From Arcobacter sp. CECT 8986 (GTDB taxonomy: Bacteria > Campylobacterota > Campylobacteria > Campylobacterales > Arcobacteraceae), in NCBI RefSeq assembly GCF_004116725.1, contig NZ_PDKG01000003.1, positions 186,001 through 250,000 on the forward strand: DNA of 64,000 nt, in the 5' to 3' direction. The notes beneath the pieces are model-generated. The model searched no databases. It saw nothing but the letters and a program-made list of their open reading frames with translations, and was not told the origin of the DNA. The translations under genes were made by a program, and so were the position numbers. This document shows, in pieces, positions 36,106-47,012 of the stretch (the stretch's first letter is position 1; each line of letters begins with the position of its first letter).

Positions 36106-36756
36106 TTAAATTTTTTCTAAACCATTCTCATTTAGTTTATAAACTGTTGGTGCTAATTTTTCAATAAAACTTTTGTGATGAGATACTATAATCATTGATT
36201 TTTTTATTGAATTTAATATATCTATAATTCTTTTTTCTGCATTTGAGTCTAGTGCATTTGTAGGTTCATCTAAAAGTAAAATTTTTGGTTGTGTGATTAA
36301 AATTCCAGCAAGTGCAACAATTTTTTGTTCACCACCACTTAATTCTAAAATAACTCTATTTTTTAAATGTGAAATTCCTAAATCTTCAAGCATCATAACT
36401 GCTTTATGATATGCTTCTTCTTTATTCATTCCTTTTGCTCTTAAATTAAACATAACATCTTCAATAACAACGGGACATAAAAAATAATCATTTACATCTT
36501 GTGGCAAATACCCAACATCACTTCTAAAATTTTTATACTCTTTTTTTGAATGTATAGGATTATGAAATAATTGAAGTTCACCATCATAAGAGTATTGTAA
36601 TCCTGCAATTATTTTAAGTAAAGTACTTTTCCCTGCACCATTTGCACCAATAATTGCTACTTTTTCTTCATGTCCAACACTTAAATCAATATTTGAGAAA
36701 AGTTGTCGATTTTCATTTTTATATGAAACTTTTTTTAGTGTTATTGAACAGCTCAT
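36106..36756 (-). CDS. nikO: Nickel ECF transporter ATPase NikO
   Basis: 216 residues. ABC ATPase with Walker A IIGANGAGKSTLLKIIAG, a Q-loop region VGYLPQDVNDYF, signature LELSGGEQKIVALAG and Walker B PKILLLDEPTNALDS, then the switch His in IVSHHK. It powers uptake through the CbiM/NikM-type channel. It overlaps nikQ by 4 bases at the end of nikK-M-L-Q-O. Cobalt rather than nickel cannot be excluded from the ATPase alone; the NikK and NikL neighbours favour nickel. Confidence 0.9.
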   Translation of the reverse strand: MSCSITLKKVSYKNENRQLFSNIDLSVGHEEKVAIIGANGAGKSTLLKIIAGLQYSYDGELQLFHNPIHSKKEYKNFRSDVGYLPQDVNDYFLCPVVIEDVMFNLRAKGMNKEEAYHKAVMMLEDLGISHLKNRVILELSGGEQKIVALAGILITQPKILLLDEPTNALDSNAEKRIIDILNSIKKSMIIVSHHKSFIEKLAPTVYKLNENGLEKI

Positions 36757-37397
36757 AATATTACCTTTGTAACAATAACAAGTAAAATTAAAAGTAGTAA
36801 AATTTTATCTTTACTTGTTATTATAAATTCATCGTTTAAATATATTTTTTTATTAAATCCTCTTGTAATAAAAGACTCTTTTAATTTATAGGATTTTCTA
36901 ATAGATTTAATAAAAAGCATTCCTAAAATATTTCCGAAAGTATAATATGTAAAAAGATTTGTTTTAGCTTGAAATCCTCTTGCTCTTAGTGTACTTTTTA
37001 TACTTTTAAAATCATTTGTAAGATTATCAATCATCTTTAGTGTGAAATAAGTAGTTGATATAAAACTATCTGGAAATTTCAAAAGATTAAAACCCCTTAC
37101 AATATCATAACCTTTTGAATTATAAAAAATTGAGATATTAAATAAAATAATCATATTAGTTCTAATAAATATATTTATTGCTTCTTGGGGTTGATTTTCT
37201 ATATATAAAACAATACTCAATGCTAAAATAAATGAGTTTAAAAAAACTAATGTTTTGAAGATTTTTAAAATATGTGATTTATTATAAAATAAAATTAAAG
37301 CAATTGGGAATAAGTAGTAAATTTCATAAGAGGTAAAACTTACTACACTTGAAAATAAAAATGCGCAAATCAAAGAGATTGCAGGGGAGAATATCAT
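36753..37397 (-). CDS. nikQ: Nickel ECF transporter membrane component NikQ
   Basis: 214 residues with about 5 membrane helices and the ECF T-component coupling motif as STLRARGFQAKT near residue 138 plus a second ITRGFNKK near residue 185; these Ala-Arg-Gly-type motifs contact the ATPases. Start and stop overlap nikL and nikO by 4 bases each. Confidence 0.87.
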   Translation of the reverse strand: MIFSPAISLICAFLFSSVVSFTSYEIYYLFPIALILFYNKSHILKIFKTLVFLNSFILALSIVLYIENQPQEAINIFIRTNMIILFNISIFYNSKGYDIVRGFNLLKFPDSFISTTYFTLKMIDNLTNDFKSIKSTLRARGFQAKTNLFTYYTFGNILGMLFIKSIRKSYKLKESFITRGFNKKIYLNDEFIITSKDKILLLLILLVIVTKVIL

Positions 37398-37879
37398 TTC
37401 TTAACTCTTTTTAAAAAATAAAATATTCCCACAATTACAAGTAATGCAAATATAATTTTTGCAAAATTTAAATACTCAAGTTCTTGCTCTAAAAGTTTTA
37501 CTTTTGCTTTTAATCTTTCATTCTCTTTTTGTAAATCAGATTTAACAATAGCCTTTTTCTCTTTTTGCTCTTCTATTGTAGTTTGTTCTTCATTTAAAGA
37601 AATCTCTTCTCTTGCAATGTGTCCACCCATAGCATCAACAATAACAACAAATTTTTTATTTTTTATATCTAAATTTGCTTCACCATCTTTGTTTGTTTTT
37701 AGTTGATTCAAGATTTTTCCATCTGGTGATTTTACTTTTACATCACAATGTTGACATCCATTTCCATTTGCAAAATATGCATTTATATATAAAGTTCCAT
37801 CTTCATAATCTGTAAATAGATTTAATTTATGAGCAAATAAAGAAGCACTCAATAAACAAAATATTACTAATAATCTCAT
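37394..37879 (-). CDS. nikL: Nickel ECF transporter accessory protein NikL
   Basis: 161 residues. An N-terminal signal sequence (LLVIFCLLSASLFAHKL), a periplasmic beta domain with CQHCDVKVKSPDGKIL near residues 37-52 (a possible metal-binding Cys pair), a short coiled coil, and a C-terminal membrane helix (about 139-157). This matches the NikL component of NikKLMQO systems. Overlaps nikM and nikQ by 4 bases. Confidence 0.8.
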   Translation of the reverse strand: MRLLVIFCLLSASLFAHKLNLFTDYEDGTLYINAYFANGNGCQHCDVKVKSPDGKILNQLKTNKDGEANLDIKNKKFVVIVDAMGGHIAREEISLNEEQTTIEEQKEKKAIVKSDLQKENERLKAKVKLLEQELEYLNFAKIIFALLVIVGIFYFLKRVKK

Positions 37880-38478
37880 ATGTTATACTCTTTTAATAAA
37901 CTTGGCATTGATTTTTTTATATACATTAATAAAAATAGAGTAATTATACCTTCTAATATCATTGCAGGAATATTTGCAGCAATTACAGCATATGATGCAA
38001 TTGCATATTCACTTTTTGCAAATAACAGCACTAAAGCAAGAAGAATTGTGGCAAAAAATACACCTAAAAAACCAATCATAAAAAATTTAACTTTTTCACT
38101 AAATCTTTTTAAAATCCCTAATTTTAATATAATATAGGTTAAATATGCAGGTAAAGCCATCACAATGATATTTGCTCCTAATGAAGTTACTCCACCATAA
38201 CCTAAAAGAGTAGCTTGTAAAATCAAAGCAATTGCAATAGGTAAAAAACTCATACTTCCTAAAAATGCACCAATTACACCAACTAAAATAAGATGAATTT
38301 GTGTAGGGCCTAAAGGAATATGAATAAAAGAAGCGATAAAAAAAAGTGCACTCATAGCTGCACATAAAGATATATCTTTATTTTTCATCTTTTTTAGTGA
38401 ATATGCACACATACCAATAGCTGCAACACCTAATGTCGCAGCTACTTGTACACTTAAAACTCCGTCTGATATATGCAT
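37876..38478 (-). CDS. nikM: Nickel ECF transporter substrate-binding membrane protein NikM
   Basis: 200 residues with about 6 membrane helices. It begins MHISDGVLS; in CbiM/NikM proteins the N-terminal amine and His2 of the MHI segment coordinate the metal. The next metal-contact His is likely in IHIPLGPTQIHLILVGV. It is the S-component of the transporter and is encoded 12 bases behind nikK. Confidence 0.92.
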   Translation of the reverse strand: MHISDGVLSVQVAATLGVAAIGMCAYSLKKMKNKDISLCAAMSALFFIASFIHIPLGPTQIHLILVGVIGAFLGSMSFLPIAIALILQATLLGYGGVTSLGANIIVMALPAYLTYIILKLGILKRFSEKVKFFMIGFLGVFFATILLALVLLFAKSEYAIASYAVIAANIPAMILEGIITLFLLMYIKKSMPSLLKEYNI

Positions 38479-39325: not shown

Positions 39326-39712
39326 TTAAAATTCTTGAACAAATTCTGCTGCTTCTCTTTGTGCAATTGAGATAGCTTCATTGAATTTTTGAGATTTAAC
39401 AATAGGTAGCATAAGACCTTTTTTCTTGTGTTCTCTAATTTTATAAATACCTTCATCATTTCTTGAAGCATAATAATCATTGAACTCTTCAGTATAAGGC
39501 ATATCCCAAACAATTGCACCTTCTGTTGGACAGGCTTCTGCACATCTTGGAGCATCTGCATGCTCAACACATTCAACACAACTTTCAGGTTTTACATAAA
39601 AATAGTCTTCATTTGGGTTCTTTTCATTACCCTCTTCTAAAATCGCTGCAACAGGACATTCACTTGCACAAGCTTCACAACTAATACACTCATCAGTAAT
39701 TCTAACTGCCAT
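39326..39712 (-). CDS. fdxN: 2[4Fe-4S] ferredoxin, nif-type FdxN
   Basis: 128 residues. Two clusters: CISCEACASECP near residues 10-21, and CVECVEHADAPRCAEACP near residues 41-58 with an eight-residue gap, the Allochromatium-type arrangement. The remaining half is an acidic/basic helical tail. Likely an electron carrier for nitrogenase or FeMo-cofactor synthesis. It has its own -24/-12 promoter at 39748-39763, immediately beyond the clpX stop, making it the left edge of the nif regulon. Confidence 0.87.
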   Translation of the reverse strand: MAVRITDECISCEACASECPVAAILEEGNEKNPNEDYFYVKPESCVECVEHADAPRCAEACPTEGAIVWDMPYTEEFNDYYASRNDEGIYKIREHKKKGLMLPIVKSQKFNEAISIAQREAAEFVQEF

Positions 39713-39747: not shown

Positions 39748-39763
39748 TGCAAAAACTATTCCA
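39748..39763 (-). promoter_or_regulatory. Sigma-54 promoter of fdxN
   Basis: TGGAATAGTTTTTGCA on the minus strand: GG and GC are separated by exactly 10 bases. It abuts the stop codon of clpX and lies 36 bases before the fdxN start. The core is identical to the nifE promoter. Confidence 0.85.
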
Positions 39764-40999
39764 CTATTTATTTATCTCATTATATTTCACTTGTTTTGTT
39801 GTTTTTGATTTTTGTTTTGTATTTATTATTGTTACTTCACTATTACCTTGTACATAATCTTTAGTAATAATACAAGTTTCAACTTTATTATCTGATGGAA
39901 TCATATATTGTAAAGGAAAGATAAATTTTTCGATAATTCCTCTAAGTCCTCTAGCACCTACATCTTTTTCCACAGCAATTTGGGCAATTTCATCTAAAGC
40001 ATCATCTTCAAACTTTAACTCAACTCCATCTAATTCAAATAGTATTTCATACTGCTTAATAATCGCATTTTTAGGCTCTTTTAATACTCTTACTAAATCA
40101 TCTTTTGTAAGCTTATTTAACTCAGCAACCACAGGAATTCTTCCGATAAATTCAGGTATTAATCCAAAAGATATTAACTCTTTTGATTCTATTTCTTTAT
40201 AGTATTCATGTTTTGAGTCTTCATTTAAAAATCCCATAACAGCAGATTTTTCTTTCTCTTTGTCTTTTCTAATTCCAACAAAAGCTCCACCACAAATAAA
40301 AAGCACATGAGTTGTATCAAATAAAATAGTCTCTGCACTTGAATTTTTTCTACTTCCTTTTACAGGAACATAAACATCAGCACCTTCTAAAATTTTAAGT
40401 AAACCTTGCTGAACTCCCTCACCACTTACATCTCTACCACTTGTGGCACTTTCACTTTTATTTGCTATTTTATCTATTTCATCAATATAGACAATTCCTC
40501 TTTTTGCTTTTTCTATATCAAAATCAGCTGCTGCCAAAAGTCTAGAAAGAATAGATTCAACATCTTCTCCTACATATCCCGCTTCAGTTAATGCGGTTGC
40601 ATCAGCAATTGCAAAAGGTACATCCATTATCTTTGCTAAAGATTTTGCAAGAAGAGTTTTTCCTGAACCTGTTGGACCAATTAACATAATATTTGATTTT
40701 TCTAGTTCAACATTTTTTACCATTGGTTTATCTATACGTTTATAGTGATTATATAAAGCAACTGCAAGAACTTTTTTAGCATCATCTTGACCAATTACAT
40801 AATCATCTAAATGCTCTTTGATAGTTATTGGAACATTTAAACCTTTTTGAAATTGCTGTTTATACTCTTTAAAAGACTCTTTTTCCAATACATTAAAACA
40901 CATAGATATACACTCATCACAAATATGTGCTTTTTCACTACTAAAGATTTTTTTTACTTCTTTAATCTTTTTACCACAAAAATCACATGAACTATTCAT
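39764..40999 (-). CDS. clpX: ClpX-type unfoldase inside the nif cluster
   Basis: 411 residues. N-terminal zinc-binding domain (CDFCGKK and CDECISMC, about 5-36), AAA+ module with IGPTGSGKTLLAKSLA, pore loop GYVGEDV, Walker B IVYIDEIDKIA, and C-terminal GARGLRGIIEKFI. The ClpP-docking loop reads MGF within SAVMGFLNEDSK rather than the usual IGF or LGF. It overlaps the SIR2-like gene by 8 bases and sits between nifA and fdxN, as a nif-linked second ClpX (compare ClpX2 of Azotobacter). Whether another clpX exists cannot be seen. Confidence 0.92.
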   Translation of the reverse strand: MNSSCDFCGKKIKEVKKIFSSEKAHICDECISMCFNVLEKESFKEYKQQFQKGLNVPITIKEHLDDYVIGQDDAKKVLAVALYNHYKRIDKPMVKNVELEKSNIMLIGPTGSGKTLLAKSLAKIMDVPFAIADATALTEAGYVGEDVESILSRLLAAADFDIEKAKRGIVYIDEIDKIANKSESATSGRDVSGEGVQQGLLKILEGADVYVPVKGSRKNSSAETILFDTTHVLFICGGAFVGIRKDKEKEKSAVMGFLNEDSKHEYYKEIESKELISFGLIPEFIGRIPVVAELNKLTKDDLVRVLKEPKNAIIKQYEILFELDGVELKFEDDALDEIAQIAVEKDVGARGLRGIIEKFIFPLQYMIPSDNKVETCIITKDYVQGNSEVTIINTKQKSKTTKQVKYNEINK

Positions 41000-41816
41000 A
41001 GTTATTTATAAATTCATCAATACCCATATCAATACTTTCTAAATTATGAGTTTTAATAAATTTATCCTCTTTTTTACTTAATTCTTCTTTGTTTAATAAA
41101 ACAAAACCACCATCTAGTCCTAAAGTTATCTCATTTGCAACCATTCTAAAAGTATCCCTTGAAAAATCAACTCCAAAGAAAATATACTGTTTGCCTTTTC
41201 TAAACTCTTTTATTACCTCAGGAACTGCATATCCACCCATAGCTTCAGTTAACCAGTCCACAAAATCTGCATCTGAGATTATAAAATTCATATCAGGAAT
41301 TATTGAGCCCATAGGTTTAAATAAAATTGGTAAGTCTAAAGTTAACTCTTTTTTATCTATTTTTGTATAAGTTTTTGAGATAACATCATATTTGTAAATA
41401 ATATATCTATCATAATCAGCAGTAATTCTAGAAATTCCAGTAATCAAAAAATGATTTACATCAGAGTAGATTTTTTGTAAGCTATCATCTAAGTTTGTAT
41501 CAATTACATATTTAGGTTTTATATTTTCAAGCCATTTATATACAGATGGTACATCATACTCTTTTGAAGTGTAAATATGATTAGTCATTTGAACAATAAA
41601 ATCTCTTCCTTTTCGTTGTTCTAAACTCATAGCTGCTCTTGTATATTCGTACATTAACCTTGGACTCATAGCTCTATTATTATTTAAAGCTAATATCATT
41701 GAGTCACTATCATAAGGTAATTTTTCTCCATCTTTTGTAAGTGTTTTTTCAAAAACACCCATTCCTAAAAAAGGAATAATTTCTCCATCTTTTAATTTTT
41801 TAATTAACTCTTTCAT
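40992..41816 (-). CDS. SIR2-like domain protein
   Basis: 274 residues. The N-terminus EIIPFLGMGVFEKTL is the glycine-rich entry of a SIR2-like NAD-binding fold, followed by WLENIKPKYVIDTNLDDSL and, near the end, YIFFGVDFSRDTFRMVANEI. No zinc ribbon is present, so it is not a classical sirtuin deacetylase; bacterial relatives are NAD hydrolases or sensors. It has its own -24/-12 promoter and is translationally coupled to clpX by an 8-base overlap. Role in nitrogen fixation is unknown. Confidence 0.7.
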   Translation of the reverse strand: MKELIKKLKDGEIIPFLGMGVFEKTLTKDGEKLPYDSDSMILALNNNRAMSPRLMYEYTRAAMSLEQRKGRDFIVQMTNHIYTSKEYDVPSVYKWLENIKPKYVIDTNLDDSLQKIYSDVNHFLITGISRITADYDRYIIYKYDVISKTYTKIDKKELTLDLPILFKPMGSIIPDMNFIISDADFVDWLTEAMGGYAVPEVIKEFRKGKQYIFFGVDFSRDTFRMVANEITLGLDGGFVLLNKEELSKKEDKFIKTHNLESIDMGIDEFINNYE

Positions 41817-41854: not shown

Positions 41855-41870
41855 TGCAAAATCTATTCCT
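41855..41870 (-). promoter_or_regulatory. Sigma-54 promoter of the SIR2-clpX pair
   Basis: AGGAATAGATTTTGCA on the minus strand, GG-N10-GC. It differs from the others by A instead of T in the first position. It lies 39 bases before the SIR2-like gene and 10 bases past the stop of the Tpx-like gene. Confidence 0.72.
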
Positions 41871-41879
41871 TTAATTTAT

Positions 41880-42386
41880 TTAATGACAACCAACTCCTGT
41901 ATAAGATTGATAAGCTCTATTTAACTCTACTCTCACAACATCTAAATTAAACTCTTTTTCTAAATTTGTTGGCATATCAATATGATAAATTGCTCCATCT
42001 TTTCCTATAATAAATAAAGCTTTTGTTAGACAATTTTCATATTTACCATTTACTATTTTTGTTCCATATAATGAAGCAAAATCCTCATTTGTATCAAATA
42101 TGGTAATCAATTTTTTAAATTTAGGAGTATTAATTTTTTTATCAAAGATTAAATAAGTAGAAATATCAACTTTTGCGCTATTTATAAATTCATCAAAAAA
42201 ATTAATCTCATCTTTAAACTCTTCATAATTAGGAAAAGATAAAAATATCTGAATTGTTCTTTTTTCATTTGATTTTTTAACTAACAAATCTTTATCATCT
42301 AAATCTTTAACTTCAATATCTTCAGCCATATATCCAATATCAATAAATTCATCAATTAAATCAAACTCTTCATTTTTATAAATCAT
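41880..42386 (-). CDS. Tpx/peroxiredoxin-like protein lacking the peroxidatic cysteine
   Basis: 168 residues. The layout follows thiol peroxidase Tpx: strand [10 protein letters not shown] at 44-53, where Tpx has FPSIDTPVC, then [20 protein letters not shown] and [17 protein letters not shown]. The peroxidatic Cys and the PxxxTxxC motif are absent (the segment reads [11 protein letters not shown]); only Cys119 and Cys167 remain, the latter in a C-terminal GVGCH. It overlaps nifA by 4 bases and so should be made with it. It is not a normal peroxidase; a sensor or NifA-partner role is a guess. Confidence 0.62.
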
Positions 42387-43930
42387 TGTAAAATTCCATA
42401 CTCTTTTATTTTGTCATGTATTTCATCTAAAGAAAATCCCAACTCTTTTGCAGCTATCTCTTGATTTAGATTATTTTTAATCAATGCACTTTCAATAGCC
42501 TCTTTTTCATATAAGTCAATTCTTTTATCACTAACTTGTATAGAGCTATACTCTTTTTTTAAATTATCATCATTTAGAGCTGGTAGTAACAAAAGCATAT
42601 CATGTTTACTAACTCCGCCCTCTTCATTTCCTAAAAGAACAATTCTTTCTAATGTATTTTCTAATTCTCTTACATTTCCTGGCCAAGGATAAATAGATAA
42701 AACATCCATTGCTTCTGGAGTAATTTGTACATTTTTCTTATGATTTCTAATAGCTTTTTCTAAAAAAAACTCAACTAATTGTCTAATATCATCACCCCTT
42801 TGTCTTAAAGGTGGTAAATCAATTGGAATAACATTTAATCTATAATATAAATCCTCTCTAAAATCACCATTTTTAACCATCTCTTCCAAGTTTCTATTAG
42901 TTGCTGCAATTAGTCTTACATTTACTTTTATTGTCTTATTTCCACCAACTCTTTCAAACTCTCTTTCTTGTAATACTCTTAAAAGTTTTACTTGTGCAGA
43001 TGCAGAAATATCACCAATTTCATCTAAAAATAGTGTTCCACCATCTGCTAATTCAAATCTACCTTTTCTTGTCTCTTTAGCATCAGTAAAAGCACCTTTT
43101 TCATGCCCAAAAAGTTCACTTTCAAGCAGACTATCTGTAATAGCTGCACAGTTTAATTTAATAAAAGGCTCATCTTTTCTTTTACTTCTTTTATGAATTG
43201 CTGCTGCAACAAGCTCTTTTCCTGTTCCTGTTTCTCCACGAATTAGTACAGTTACATCAGATTGTGCAATTCGTTGAATTGCATTGAAAACTTGTTTCAT
43301 CTTTTCACTATCACCAATAATATCTCCAAAGTTATGAACTTTAGAATCCCATTCCATTTTATAGTAAAGCTTTAACTCTTTTAATCTCTCTTTTTCTTTT
43401 TTATTTAATAAATATGAGTAAATTGATTGTGCAAAAATTGAAGAAACTATCGTCAAAATCCTAACACAGTCATCAAATCCAATTTCTGTTGTTTTTGTTA
43501 AAGTTGCTCCTAAAACTCCTATTGTTTCATCTTCTATTATTAAAGGAACTGCAACATAAGATAGATTATTTAAATCTCTTTTCCCTGATTTATTCAAAAA
43601 CAAAGAATCATTATGAATATTTTCTACAACAACTGGTTCTTTAGACTCAGCTGCTAGACCAGTTACACCCTCACCTAACTTATAACATGATAATTTTTTT
43701 TGTATTGTACTTAATTCAACAGAAGCAAATACATTTAAGTAACTATCCTCTTCTAAAAGATGAACAGAACAGTTTGTTAGGTGTAGAGAATTTTTCAGTA
43801 TCTTCATAGATTTTTCTAAAGAAGTCTCTAAATCATAATGGTTTGATATCACAGAAGCGATATCATACAGTGTTGTTAATTCTTTTAATGTAAGACAACT
43901 CATACATGCTGTTTTATCAAAAAGTGCCAT
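42383..43930 (-). CDS. nifA: Nif-specific sigma-54 activator NifA
   Basis: 515 residues. N-terminal GAF domain (about 20-180), AAA+ domain (about 205-440) with [25 protein letters not shown] in place of the usual GAFTGA, and [11 protein letters not shown], and a C-terminal Fis-type helix-turn-helix (about 470-515). The interdomain cysteine motif of oxygen-sensing rhizobial NifA is absent, as in Azotobacter, but no nifL is in the window. The N-terminus has an extra C9-x2-C12 pair. The HTH recognition helix ([10 protein letters not shown]) is unlike that of typical NifA. Confidence 0.9.
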
Positions 43931-44247: not shown

Positions 44248-45897
44248 TTATTTTTTATTTATTATTAGCTTTCTTATTTTTGACCAAAAGTCATCTTCTT
44301 CAAACTCCAATTTAAAAAAACCTTTTTGAAATTCACTTATTAAAATATGTTTATTATATTTTTCATTTAAAGTGGGGAAATCTTTTCTAAAATGAGAACC
44401 TCTACTCTCTTTTCTCAAATTTGCACTTAGTATTATTGCTTCAGATATTTCAAGGGCATTTCTTAGCTCCAAAATAGAACTTAACTCCACATTATTTCTT
44501 TTTTCTTTATTTATACAATGTAAAGAGTATGATTGTGTTCTTAGATATTTTATATAATCAAATGCCTTTATTAAACTTAACTCATCTCTTATAATTCCTA
44601 CATTTTCATACATACAATTTCCCAAAGAGATTCTAATTGCATTAAAATTTTTAGAACTATCTGAAGAAAATATATAATCTATCATCTCTATATCTTTTAT
44701 CACATTGTTATAGTTAATAATTTCAAAACTATTATCAATACTATAAGTCAATGCTTTTTGTCCTGCTAATTCTCCAAATACAGTTGATTCTAATAAAGAG
44801 TTTCCTCCTAATCTATTTGCACCATGTATTTGAGTATTTGCCATCTCACCACATATAAATAGACCTTTTATTTTACTTTCTACCATATTTGTAACTTCTA
44901 CTCCACCCATACTATAATGTGCAACTGGTTTTATTTGTAAAAGTTCTTTACTTATATCTACTCCAACTTGATTAAATGCAGCATTATATAAACTTGGTAA
45001 TTTTTGTTGTATTTTTTCTAAACCTAAATGTCTTAAATCAATATAAACTTTTTTGTTTTTTTGTTGTTGTTCTACTATTGCTTTTGCAAGTTTATCTCTT
45101 GTTTCAAGTTCATTTACAAAACGTTCATTATCTTCATTTATTAAATATCCACCCTCAGCTCTTGCCGCTTCTGTTACCAAATAGTTTGTTTTTTCAATTC
45201 CTGTTGGATGAAACTGTATAAATTCCATATCTTTTAAAGCTAATTTTGCACGCAAACAAACTGCAATTAAATCACCCGTATAATCTTGTGCATTTGTAGA
45301 GTTTCCTCTAAAAATACCTGCATATCCACCACCTGCTAGAACAACAGCTTTAGCGGGATATACTAAAACATTTGAATCTACTCTTCTTAAAGCAATAACT
45401 CCACTGATTTTATTTTTATGTACTGATAAATTTAAAACAAAAGTATTAACTAAAAAAGTTATTCCAAGTTGTTTAGCTTGTTTTATTAAAGCTTGAGTAA
45501 TTGCACTTCCTGTTTTATCTTTGACATAACAAGTTCTATTATGTTTACCTCCACCAAAAGGTCGTTGCAAAATATTTCCATCTTCATCTTTATCAAAATC
45601 AACTCCATAAAGTTCTAACTTCGAAATTATTTTATTTGCACGTTTACACATATAAGTTATATTTTCTAAATTTGCTAAATATTTAGATGAATTATATGTA
45701 TCATCAATATGAGATTGGATTTTTTCTGAATCACTTTCATCTAAAACTGCATTTATTCCACCACATGCCATAGATGAATTTGATTTAAAGATATTTCCTT
45801 TTGTGATAATTGCTACTTTATTTGTAGAAGTTTTTGCTTCTATTGCAGCCATAAGACCTGATACTCCACCACCTACAACTATTACATCATAAATCAT
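44248..45897 (-). CDS. FrdA/NadB-like flavoprotein of the nif cluster
   Basis: 549 residues. FAD-binding DVIVVGGGVSGLMAAIEA at the N-terminus, then SMACGGINAVLDESDS, FIQFHPTGIE, HYSMGGVEVTN and GANRLGGNSLLES, all typical of the fumarate reductase/aspartate oxidase flavoprotein family. The histidine that binds FAD covalently in FrdA/SdhA is replaced (KSNSSMACGG), as in L-aspartate oxidase and soluble fumarate reductases. Read with an aldo/keto reductase and nifT from a sigma-54 promoter. Its substrate, and whether it serves NAD synthesis or redox supply, is unknown. Confidence 0.8.
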   Translation of the reverse strand: MIYDVIVVGGGVSGLMAAIEAKTSTNKVAIITKGNIFKSNSSMACGGINAVLDESDSEKIQSHIDDTYNSSKYLANLENITYMCKRANKIISKLELYGVDFDKDEDGNILQRPFGGGKHNRTCYVKDKTGSAITQALIKQAKQLGITFLVNTFVLNLSVHKNKISGVIALRRVDSNVLVYPAKAVVLAGGGYAGIFRGNSTNAQDYTGDLIAVCLRAKLALKDMEFIQFHPTGIEKTNYLVTEAARAEGGYLINEDNERFVNELETRDKLAKAIVEQQQKNKKVYIDLRHLGLEKIQQKLPSLYNAAFNQVGVDISKELLQIKPVAHYSMGGVEVTNMVESKIKGLFICGEMANTQIHGANRLGGNSLLESTVFGELAGQKALTYSIDNSFEIINYNNVIKDIEMIDYIFSSDSSKNFNAIRISLGNCMYENVGIIRDELSLIKAFDYIKYLRTQSYSLHCINKEKRNNVELSSILELRNALEISEAIILSANLRKESRGSHFRKDFPTLNEKYNKHILISEFQKGFFKLEFEEDDFWSKIRKLIINKK

Positions 45898-45899
45898 AA

Positions 45900-47012
45900 C
45901 TATACTTTGTACATTAAATCATATTTTGCTCTTGGCACTGATTTAATCTTTGTTATTTCTAAATTACTTTTTATATGAACAGGAACTTTTGAAGCAAACA
46001 GTGAACTAATTATTCCAGGTGTAGAACGAACAAATTGTAAAGCAAGTTGAATATCATTTTCTAATATCATCTTTGAATCAAGTAAATATCCTATTTCGGC
46101 TTTAAAAGAGCGTTTAAAAAGATTCATTTGAAGTAAAGAAGAACTAGAAATAAGGCCAAGTCCTAATCTATGTGCTGCTTGAACAACAGTACATCTTTCA
46201 TTTGTTACTATTTGTGTTGGCATTGTATAAATAGAAGTTTTTGCTAAATTAAAAGGCGTTTGAATATATCTAAAGTGATGTTCTCTTCCAGCTACTTTTA
46301 CAGCAATTTTTACTAAATCTTCTAAATTTATATGCTCTTTGGAATTCTCATCATTTATAAAAGCATTCCAAACAGCAACTCCATAATATTTAATTAGTCC
46401 AGAATCAACCATCTTCTCAAATCTTTCAAATACTTTCTCTATTTTTTTTAAGAATTTTTTATATCCAAGTGATATTAGTTGCATTTCTGGATTATGTAAA
46501 AAGAAGATATCAATTGAATCAAGTTGCAGGTTATTTAGTGATTTTTTACAAGACCATTCTAAAAAGTCAGGGGTCATACAGTGTTGGTCTAATTCGATAT
46601 CTTCTCTTGTTGCAAGTTTTTTACTTATAATATTATCTTCTATCCATGTATAAGGATTTTTAGGGAAAGGATAATCAAGTTGAATAAACCCAGCTTTTGA
46701 ACAGACAATTAACTCCTCTCTTGATACTTCACCATCATTTATAAGCTCTTTTATAGCTATTGCAATCTCTTTTTCACTTTGGCCATATCTGTAATTACTT
46801 GCTGTATCTATTAAATTTATTCCATCTCTTATCGCTTCTTTTACACCTTCAATATAATGAAAAACATAATTTTCCTCTTTATAAGGTTCTTTATTAAAAG
46901 TTCCTAAGCCCAACTTTGAGAAAATTAAATCATTGTGTTTCACATAAAAATCTTTATAATTTGAAAATTTTTTTGCAAAATTATATGTTGATTGAGGTGT
47001 TGCATAAGACAT
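45900..47012 (-). CDS. Aldo/keto reductase of the nif cluster
   Basis: 370 residues with a TIM-barrel aldo/keto reductase pattern: LIDTASNYRYGQSEKEIAIA (catalytic Asp and Tyr), VCSKAGF (Lys) and FFLHNPE (His). An inserted segment around residues 115-150 is longer than in minimal family members. It is the first gene of a three-gene sigma-54 operon with a flavoprotein and nifT; its stop is 2 bases before the flavoprotein start. Substrate unknown. Confidence 0.85.
   Translation of the reverse strand: MSYATPQSTYNFAKKFSNYKDFYVKHNDLIFSKLGLGTFNKEPYKEENYVFHYIEGVKEAIRDGINLIDTASNYRYGQSEKEIAIAIKELINDGEVSREELIVCSKAGFIQLDYPFPKNPYTWIEDNIISKKLATREDIELDQHCMTPDFLEWSCKKSLNNLQLDSIDIFFLHNPEMQLISLGYKKFLKKIEKVFERFEKMVDSGLIKYYGVAVWNAFINDENSKEHINLEDLVKIAVKVAGREHHFRYIQTPFNLAKTSIYTMPTQIVTNERCTVVQAAHRLGLGLISSSSLLQMNLFKRSFKAEIGYLLDSKMILENDIQLALQFVRSTPGIISSLFASKVPVHIKSNLEITKIKSVPRAKYDLMYKV

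Follow-up and report, generated by a model that had tools for sequence, protein, structure and literature searches.

Oxygen damages nitrogenase and the proteins that assemble its cofactors, and the turnover of these proteins is poorly understood. SIR2 family proteins are listed in the nif clusters of R. capsulatus, Rhodovulum, Zymomonas, and P. stutzeri, and in R. capsulatus the protein Rcc03262 was undetected in a nifA mutant (PMC6925177). A mutant has been published for pnfA (PST1325) of P. stutzeri A1501, which encodes a 31.7 kDa protein assigned to the SIR2 family by annotation only, depends on NifA and sigma-54 for its expression, and is found only in diazotrophs (PMC2820453). At 0.5% oxygen, nitrogenase activity fell to 23% in a non-polar pnfA mutant, which could be complemented and in which nifH transcription was unchanged; there was no defect in anaerobiosis without nitrate, and nitrate-supported anaerobic fixation was lost (PMC2820453). 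The same island also contains a Clp protease gene (PST1358), which was induced 8.4-fold. In Azotobacter vinelandii, ClpX2 controls the levels of NifB and NifEN, according to Martinez-Noel 2011 as cited in PMC3916325. The first-pass annotation of the locus described here took a SIR2-like protein to be new in a nif setting, which does not hold given these examples and others annotated on rhizobial symbiotic plasmids.

The window (the whole 64-kb stretch of DNA that was analyzed, from a genome of 2.65 Mb in 36 contigs) carries nifHDK, nifEN, nifX, and rpoN in addition to the features listed in Table 1. On the minus strand the gene order is nifT, nifA, a gene for a peroxiredoxin-like protein, the SIR2-like gene, clpX2, and a gene for a 2[4Fe-4S] ferredoxin. 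The peroxiredoxin-like gene overlaps nifA by 4 bp and is separated from the SIR2-like gene by 63 bp, and the SIR2-like and clpX2 reading frames overlap by 8 bp, so that open reading frame coordinates and profile matches agree with the earlier description of a SIR2-like/ClpX pair 3′ of nifA. The pair had also been placed between nifA and fdxN. This is right as to position, but the peroxiredoxin-like gene also intervenes after nifA, and fdxN is a loose name because the ferredoxin best resembles YfhL-type ferredoxins, with a score below their cutoff. NifA scored 501.4 against TIGR01817, just below the cutoff of 528.85. Genes for a CbiM/CbiQ/CbiO-type metal transporter (36106-38478) adjoin the ferredoxin end of the cluster. 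Elsewhere in the window, a flavoprotein gene of the L-aspartate-oxidase/fumarate-reductase type and an aldo-keto reductase gene (44248-47012) were found, with a sigma-54 site preceding the reductase, and in many relatives these two genes are positioned between nifK and nifT.

Table 1. Coordinates in the window of the genes and promoter sites discussed in the text.
Feature	Position	Strand	Remarks
2[4Fe-4S] ferredoxin gene	39326-39712	-	128 aa
Sigma-54 site GTGGAATAGTTTTTGCA of ferredoxin gene	39748-39764	-	Touches clpX2 stop codon
ClpX2 gene	39764-40999	-	411 aa, full-length; NCBIfam ClpX models and motifs
SIR2-like protein (PnfA-like) gene	40992-41816	-	274 aa; Pfam SIR2_2
Sigma-54 -24/-12 site AAGGAATAGATTTTGCA	41855-41871	-	Ends 38 nt before SIR2-like ATG
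Peroxiredoxin-like gene	41880-42386	-	168 aa; conserved partner upstream of SIR2-like gene
nifA	42383-43930	-	Sigma-54 activator with GAF domain

The predicted promoter of the SIR2-like gene is likely under sigma-54 control. Candidate -24/-12 sites were scored in the 90 nt upstream of each of 62 genes. The weights followed the published consensus but were assigned manually, at a point when the SIR2-like site had already been spotted by eye; this site is thus no independent test, whereas the other six are. Seven sites scored at or above the threshold of 13.2, compared to 0.17 expected, and all seven are in the nif region, upstream of nifN, nifX, nifE, and nifH and of the ferredoxin, aldo-keto reductase, and SIR2-like genes. 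The region upstream of clpX2 contains no comparable site (best score 9.4), which fits the promoter common to the SIR2-like gene and clpX2 that had been proposed at first. The ferredoxin gene is probably a transcription unit of its own. In several relatives (e.g., L002, L005, L006, L008, L017, and L018) similar sites were found 29-38 nt upstream of the SIR2-like ATG. In other relatives the site is absent and the SIR2-like gene overlaps the upstream frame, in which case a promoter site of its own may not be needed. The NifA-type upstream activating motif TGT-N10-ACA was not enriched (14 versus about 21 expected). Overall, sigma-54 control appears likely, and control by NifA is presumed.

The SIR2-like protein matched the Pfam family SIR2_2 (31.2 bits against a cutoff of 24.5, E 2.7e-07), as did all 31 family members scanned at E <=0.1; the Pfam SIR2 family of sirtuins proper was not matched. 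It contains no cysteine and therefore lacks the sirtuin zinc site, so that neither the domain nor the zinc-binding cysteines expected of a sirtuin protein deacylase were found. A sequence profile search of the PDB gave weak but in-register matches to ThsA (7uxt, E 0.0075) and DSR2 (E 0.12), and the ThsA alignment pairs the family motifs DTNLD and KP[ML]G with TNYD and KLHG, respectively, which puts Met169 at the position of the catalytic histidine. By this weak alignment, Asn108 is retained in the window protein, and the same combination of Asn with Met or Leu is found in 63 of 64 Campylobacterota members, with the remaining one having Thr and Met; the histidine is thus replaced in all 64. Seven proteobacterial members have Trp for the Asn, with His, Tyr, or Leu at the other position. 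Since the catalytic Asn and His, as placed by this alignment, never occur together in 71 sequences, sirtuin or NADase chemistry is unlikely, as is hydrolysis of NAD through the known mechanism, contrary to an initial suggestion of an NAD-linked enzyme. Nineteen residues are nonetheless invariant, including G18, D106, D110, R130, G170, D182, D184, T190, E191, and R224, and a conserved binding site may therefore remain. An AlphaFold model built on four sequences was of low confidence (mean pLDDT 39.5, pTM 0.41), so assignment of the SIR2-type fold rests on the Pfam and ThsA profile matches. The closest named relatives of the protein are in Arcobacter MAGs (79 and 75% identity). In two loci (L003:10016-10018 and L011) the N-terminal part of the SIR2-like gene contains an in-frame stop, which may reflect either a downstream start or a damaged gene.

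The ThsA (Thoeris), DSR2, and KomC NADases have a SIR2-type domain in which the GxG, TN-D, and K-x-H-G regions follow one another as they do in the window protein. In contrast to these, the window protein has lost the catalytic histidine, has no effector or sensor domain, and is encoded in a nif context with no defense signature. A role as an anti-phage defense module was rejected, as PADLOC gave no hit for the SIR2-like protein, its neighbors are nif genes, and its distribution follows nif. The possibility that it belonged to an unrelated defense module, left open by the first-pass annotation, is thereby removed.

The other conserved partner, the peroxiredoxin-like protein, seemingly lacks the usual peroxidatic cysteine. 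Its C-terminus reads YTGVGCH in the window and retains a conserved GCH tail (YTGxGCH) in relatives. The gene is conserved 5′ of the SIR2-like gene across several families, and no relatives of the protein were found among plasmid records.

ClpX2 scored well above the cutoffs of two NCBIfam ClpX models (555.5 versus 359 and 518.4 versus 370.75 bits) and contains the zinc-binding domain, the Walker A motif GPTGSGKT, the pore loop GYVG, and the ClpP-docking loop MGF. It is not the only ClpX of this genome, as had been a concern, since a housekeeping clpX (C12:42425-43645) encodes a protein 50% identical to it; one clear clpP was found (C3:79324). In a phylogenetic tree the ClpX2 proteins form a clade separate from ClpX1, in which Walker A and GYVG are retained and the ClpP-docking loop is mostly [MV]GF. 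In 17 genomes (L037-L053) the gap of about 640 bp between the SIR2-like gene and clpX2 is a clpP gene with an intact Ser, His, and Asp triad. The encoded protein belongs to a clade separate and far from the housekeeping ClpP1, and the gene is the second clpP in every one of the 17 genomes that was searched. As this second clpP keeps its triad, a full ClpP2-ClpX2 protease would be encoded in these nif loci, which adds weight to the idea of proteolysis put forward for the window. In one genome the contig with the nif genes bears a second clpP of the housekeeping type (G256:C6:19248-19787, L152), some 13 kb away from the SIR2-like gene. The window ClpX2 resembles A. vinelandii ClpX2 in being the second ClpX of a diazotroph beside a housekeeping clpX and in its link to nitrogen fixation. 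It differs in being paired with a SIR2-like gene, in having its own clpP in relatives, and in forming one clade within Campylobacterota.

In order to determine the distribution of the pair, 299 genomes of the order were surveyed, counting SIR2-like genes at E <1e-20. SIR2-like genes were present in 67 genomes and NifD/NifE-type genes in 73, with 66 having both, and the sole carrier without nif genes (G017) is a fragmented assembly; occurrence is thus restricted to diazotrophs, as it is in the PnfA family. The co-occurrence is significant (Fisher p 5e-57), which overstates the evidence because related genomes were counted as independent, and cases of rearrangement and decay served as a check. 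Families f16 and f7 keep the peroxiredoxin-like, SIR2-like, and clpX2 genes together as a unit without adjoining nifA, nifT, or oxidoreductase genes. The unit is likewise intact where nifA no longer adjoins it (L037-L053, L085, and L086), with L085 and L086 keeping the SIR2-like/clpX2 pair without the peroxiredoxin-like gene. In G101 (L064, 8869-19471), nifH, nifD, nifK, nifE, nifN, the SIR2-like gene, and clpX2 are all fragments in a decaying nif cluster, and G165, a genome of the same genus without nif, lacks both the SIR2-like gene and ClpX2. ClpX2 was found in 50 genomes, 49 of which also have the SIR2-like gene, and in 47 of these 49 it is directly 3′ of that gene on the same strand (the other two are split across contigs). 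This bears out the adjacency that the first-pass annotation had proposed to survey, and a search of the open-licence literature gave no paper on SIR2-clp linkage at nif loci. A further 18 genomes, mostly from one genus of family f20, have the SIR2-like gene but not ClpX2, and seven nif genomes lack the SIR2-like gene, which is therefore dispensable.

Relatives outside Campylobacterota were sought by tblastn against 72,556 plasmids. The 72 matching records are nearly all rhizobial symbiotic plasmids, with one Methylococcus nif plasmid and one Paraburkholderia record, and in the annotated rhizobial cases the SIR2-like gene is directly after nifT. The rhizobial and Methylococcus proteins are full-length, nif-linked relatives (24-28% identity, E ~1e-20) that share the same invariant residues. 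Unlike the window protein, they have Trp in place of Asn108 and mostly His at position 169, and their genes have no adjoining clpX. The nif plasmid of Methylococcus sp. EFPC2 does carry a clpP-clpX-lon set flanked by nifQ and a flavodoxin gene (L118 6255-10756), elsewhere in the nif island and not beside the SIR2-like gene. This ClpX groups with E. coli ClpX on long branches, which suggests that it was recruited separately, in parallel to the ClpX2 of Campylobacterota. A common origin of the two was considered, for which the long-branched tree gives no support. PnfA is diazotroph-only and nif-linked, like the window protein, and its sigma-54 promoter has a predicted counterpart upstream of the window gene, but PST1325 is divergent from nifH and is not paired with a clpX (PST1358 being elsewhere in the island). 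From annotation, size, nif context, and diazotroph-only distribution, we infer that PnfA and the window protein belong to one family.

The tight pairing with clpX2 raises the question of whether the SIR2-like protein serves ClpX2 alone as an adaptor or anti-adaptor, delivering NifB, NifEN, or other Nif proteins to it as substrates or shielding them from it. The 8-bp overlap, the 47 adjacent pairs, their retention through rearrangement, and the dedicated clpP in 17 genomes are consistent with such a role, as is the precedent of Azotobacter ClpX2 (Martinez-Noel 2011, in the account of PMC3916325). However, 18 genomes, as well as rhizobia, carry the gene without ClpX2, and the invariant residues are common to lineages without a linked clpX, so that the SIR2-like protein is not merely a ClpX adaptor, the Clp coupling appears to be lineage-specific, and this explanation is unlikely. 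Physical coupling of the two proteins is possible but cannot be the only role of the SIR2-like protein. That it is instead an NAD-dependent enzyme (a NAD hydrolase, a deacylase, or related to ADP-ribosylation) tying Nif turnover to the NAD level would agree with the SIR2_2 match, the weak PDB matches to NADases, and the widely retained Asn108, but the replaced histidine, the proteobacterial Trp, the lack of any sequence with both residues, and the missing zinc site make it very unlikely; enzymatic activity from an altered active site is conceivable.

Two other explanations concern the position of the gene rather than its partner. In many genomes the SIR2-like gene immediately follows nifA, with or without the peroxiredoxin-like gene in between, and the frames overlap; in the single-ClpX lineage f20 its overlap with nifA is 13 bp. 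Such an arrangement might be expected of a NifL-like nucleotide or redox sensor that controls NifA while Clp turns NifA over. We consider this role quite improbable, as nifH transcription is normal in the pnfA mutant (PMC2820453) and several families, as well as Bradyrhizobium, do not have nifA next to the gene. Another is that unrelated genes with no common function travel together with a mobile nif island. Clusters of nif genes do move and gather accessory genes, and seven nif genomes do without the SIR2-like gene, but the unit is kept across several families and through rearrangements, shares a sigma-54 site, and decays along with nif; plain hitchhiking is disfavored for these reasons and is given little credence.

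The reading we prefer, to which we give about an even chance, is that the SIR2-like protein is a nif-regulon factor for the post-translational upkeep of nitrogenase, coupled in Campylobacterota to a Clp unfoldase or protease specific to nif and to a degenerate peroxiredoxin. The gene would be a nif accessory gene of the NifA/sigma-54 type and most likely a homolog of pnfA, with a product that has a SIR2-type Rossmann fold, does not work as a sirtuin or NADase, and probably has a nucleotide or a Nif protein as its binding partner. By analogy, the pnfA phenotype points to a post-transcriptional, oxygen-linked role, in which the protein would sustain nitrogenase activity mainly in the presence of oxygen. 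Campylobacterota would make it together with a nif-specific ClpX2 (ClpP2-ClpX2 in some lineages) and the degenerate peroxiredoxin, and this unit may act on nitrogenase or cofactor-assembly proteins that are in surplus or damaged by oxygen, by refolding, disassembling, or degrading them, the Nif proteins being putative substrates. This genome encodes one clear ClpP; here ClpX2 would use the housekeeping ClpP as its docking partner or work alone as an unfoldase. The neighbors, a nif-only Clp and a peroxiredoxin-like protein seemingly without its peroxidatic cysteine, fit the upkeep or turnover of nitrogenase or its assembly proteins. A more specific version, in which the catalytically dead SIR2 fold acts as an adaptor, gated by nucleotide or redox state, and passes Nif proteins damaged by oxygen on to ClpX2 or ClpP2X2, with the degenerate peroxiredoxin as redox sensor, would amount to nitrogenase-specific quality control in Campylobacterota diazotrophs, and is rather unlikely.

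The PnfA-like protein and the nif-only Clp unit provide concrete genes for deletion and testing. The uncharacterized "SIR2 family protein" of many nif clusters could be assigned a fold, a probable loss of catalytic activity, and a phenotype from the literature. Furthermore, the PnfA-like/Clp unit could be a component that is lacking when nif clusters are transferred to other hosts.
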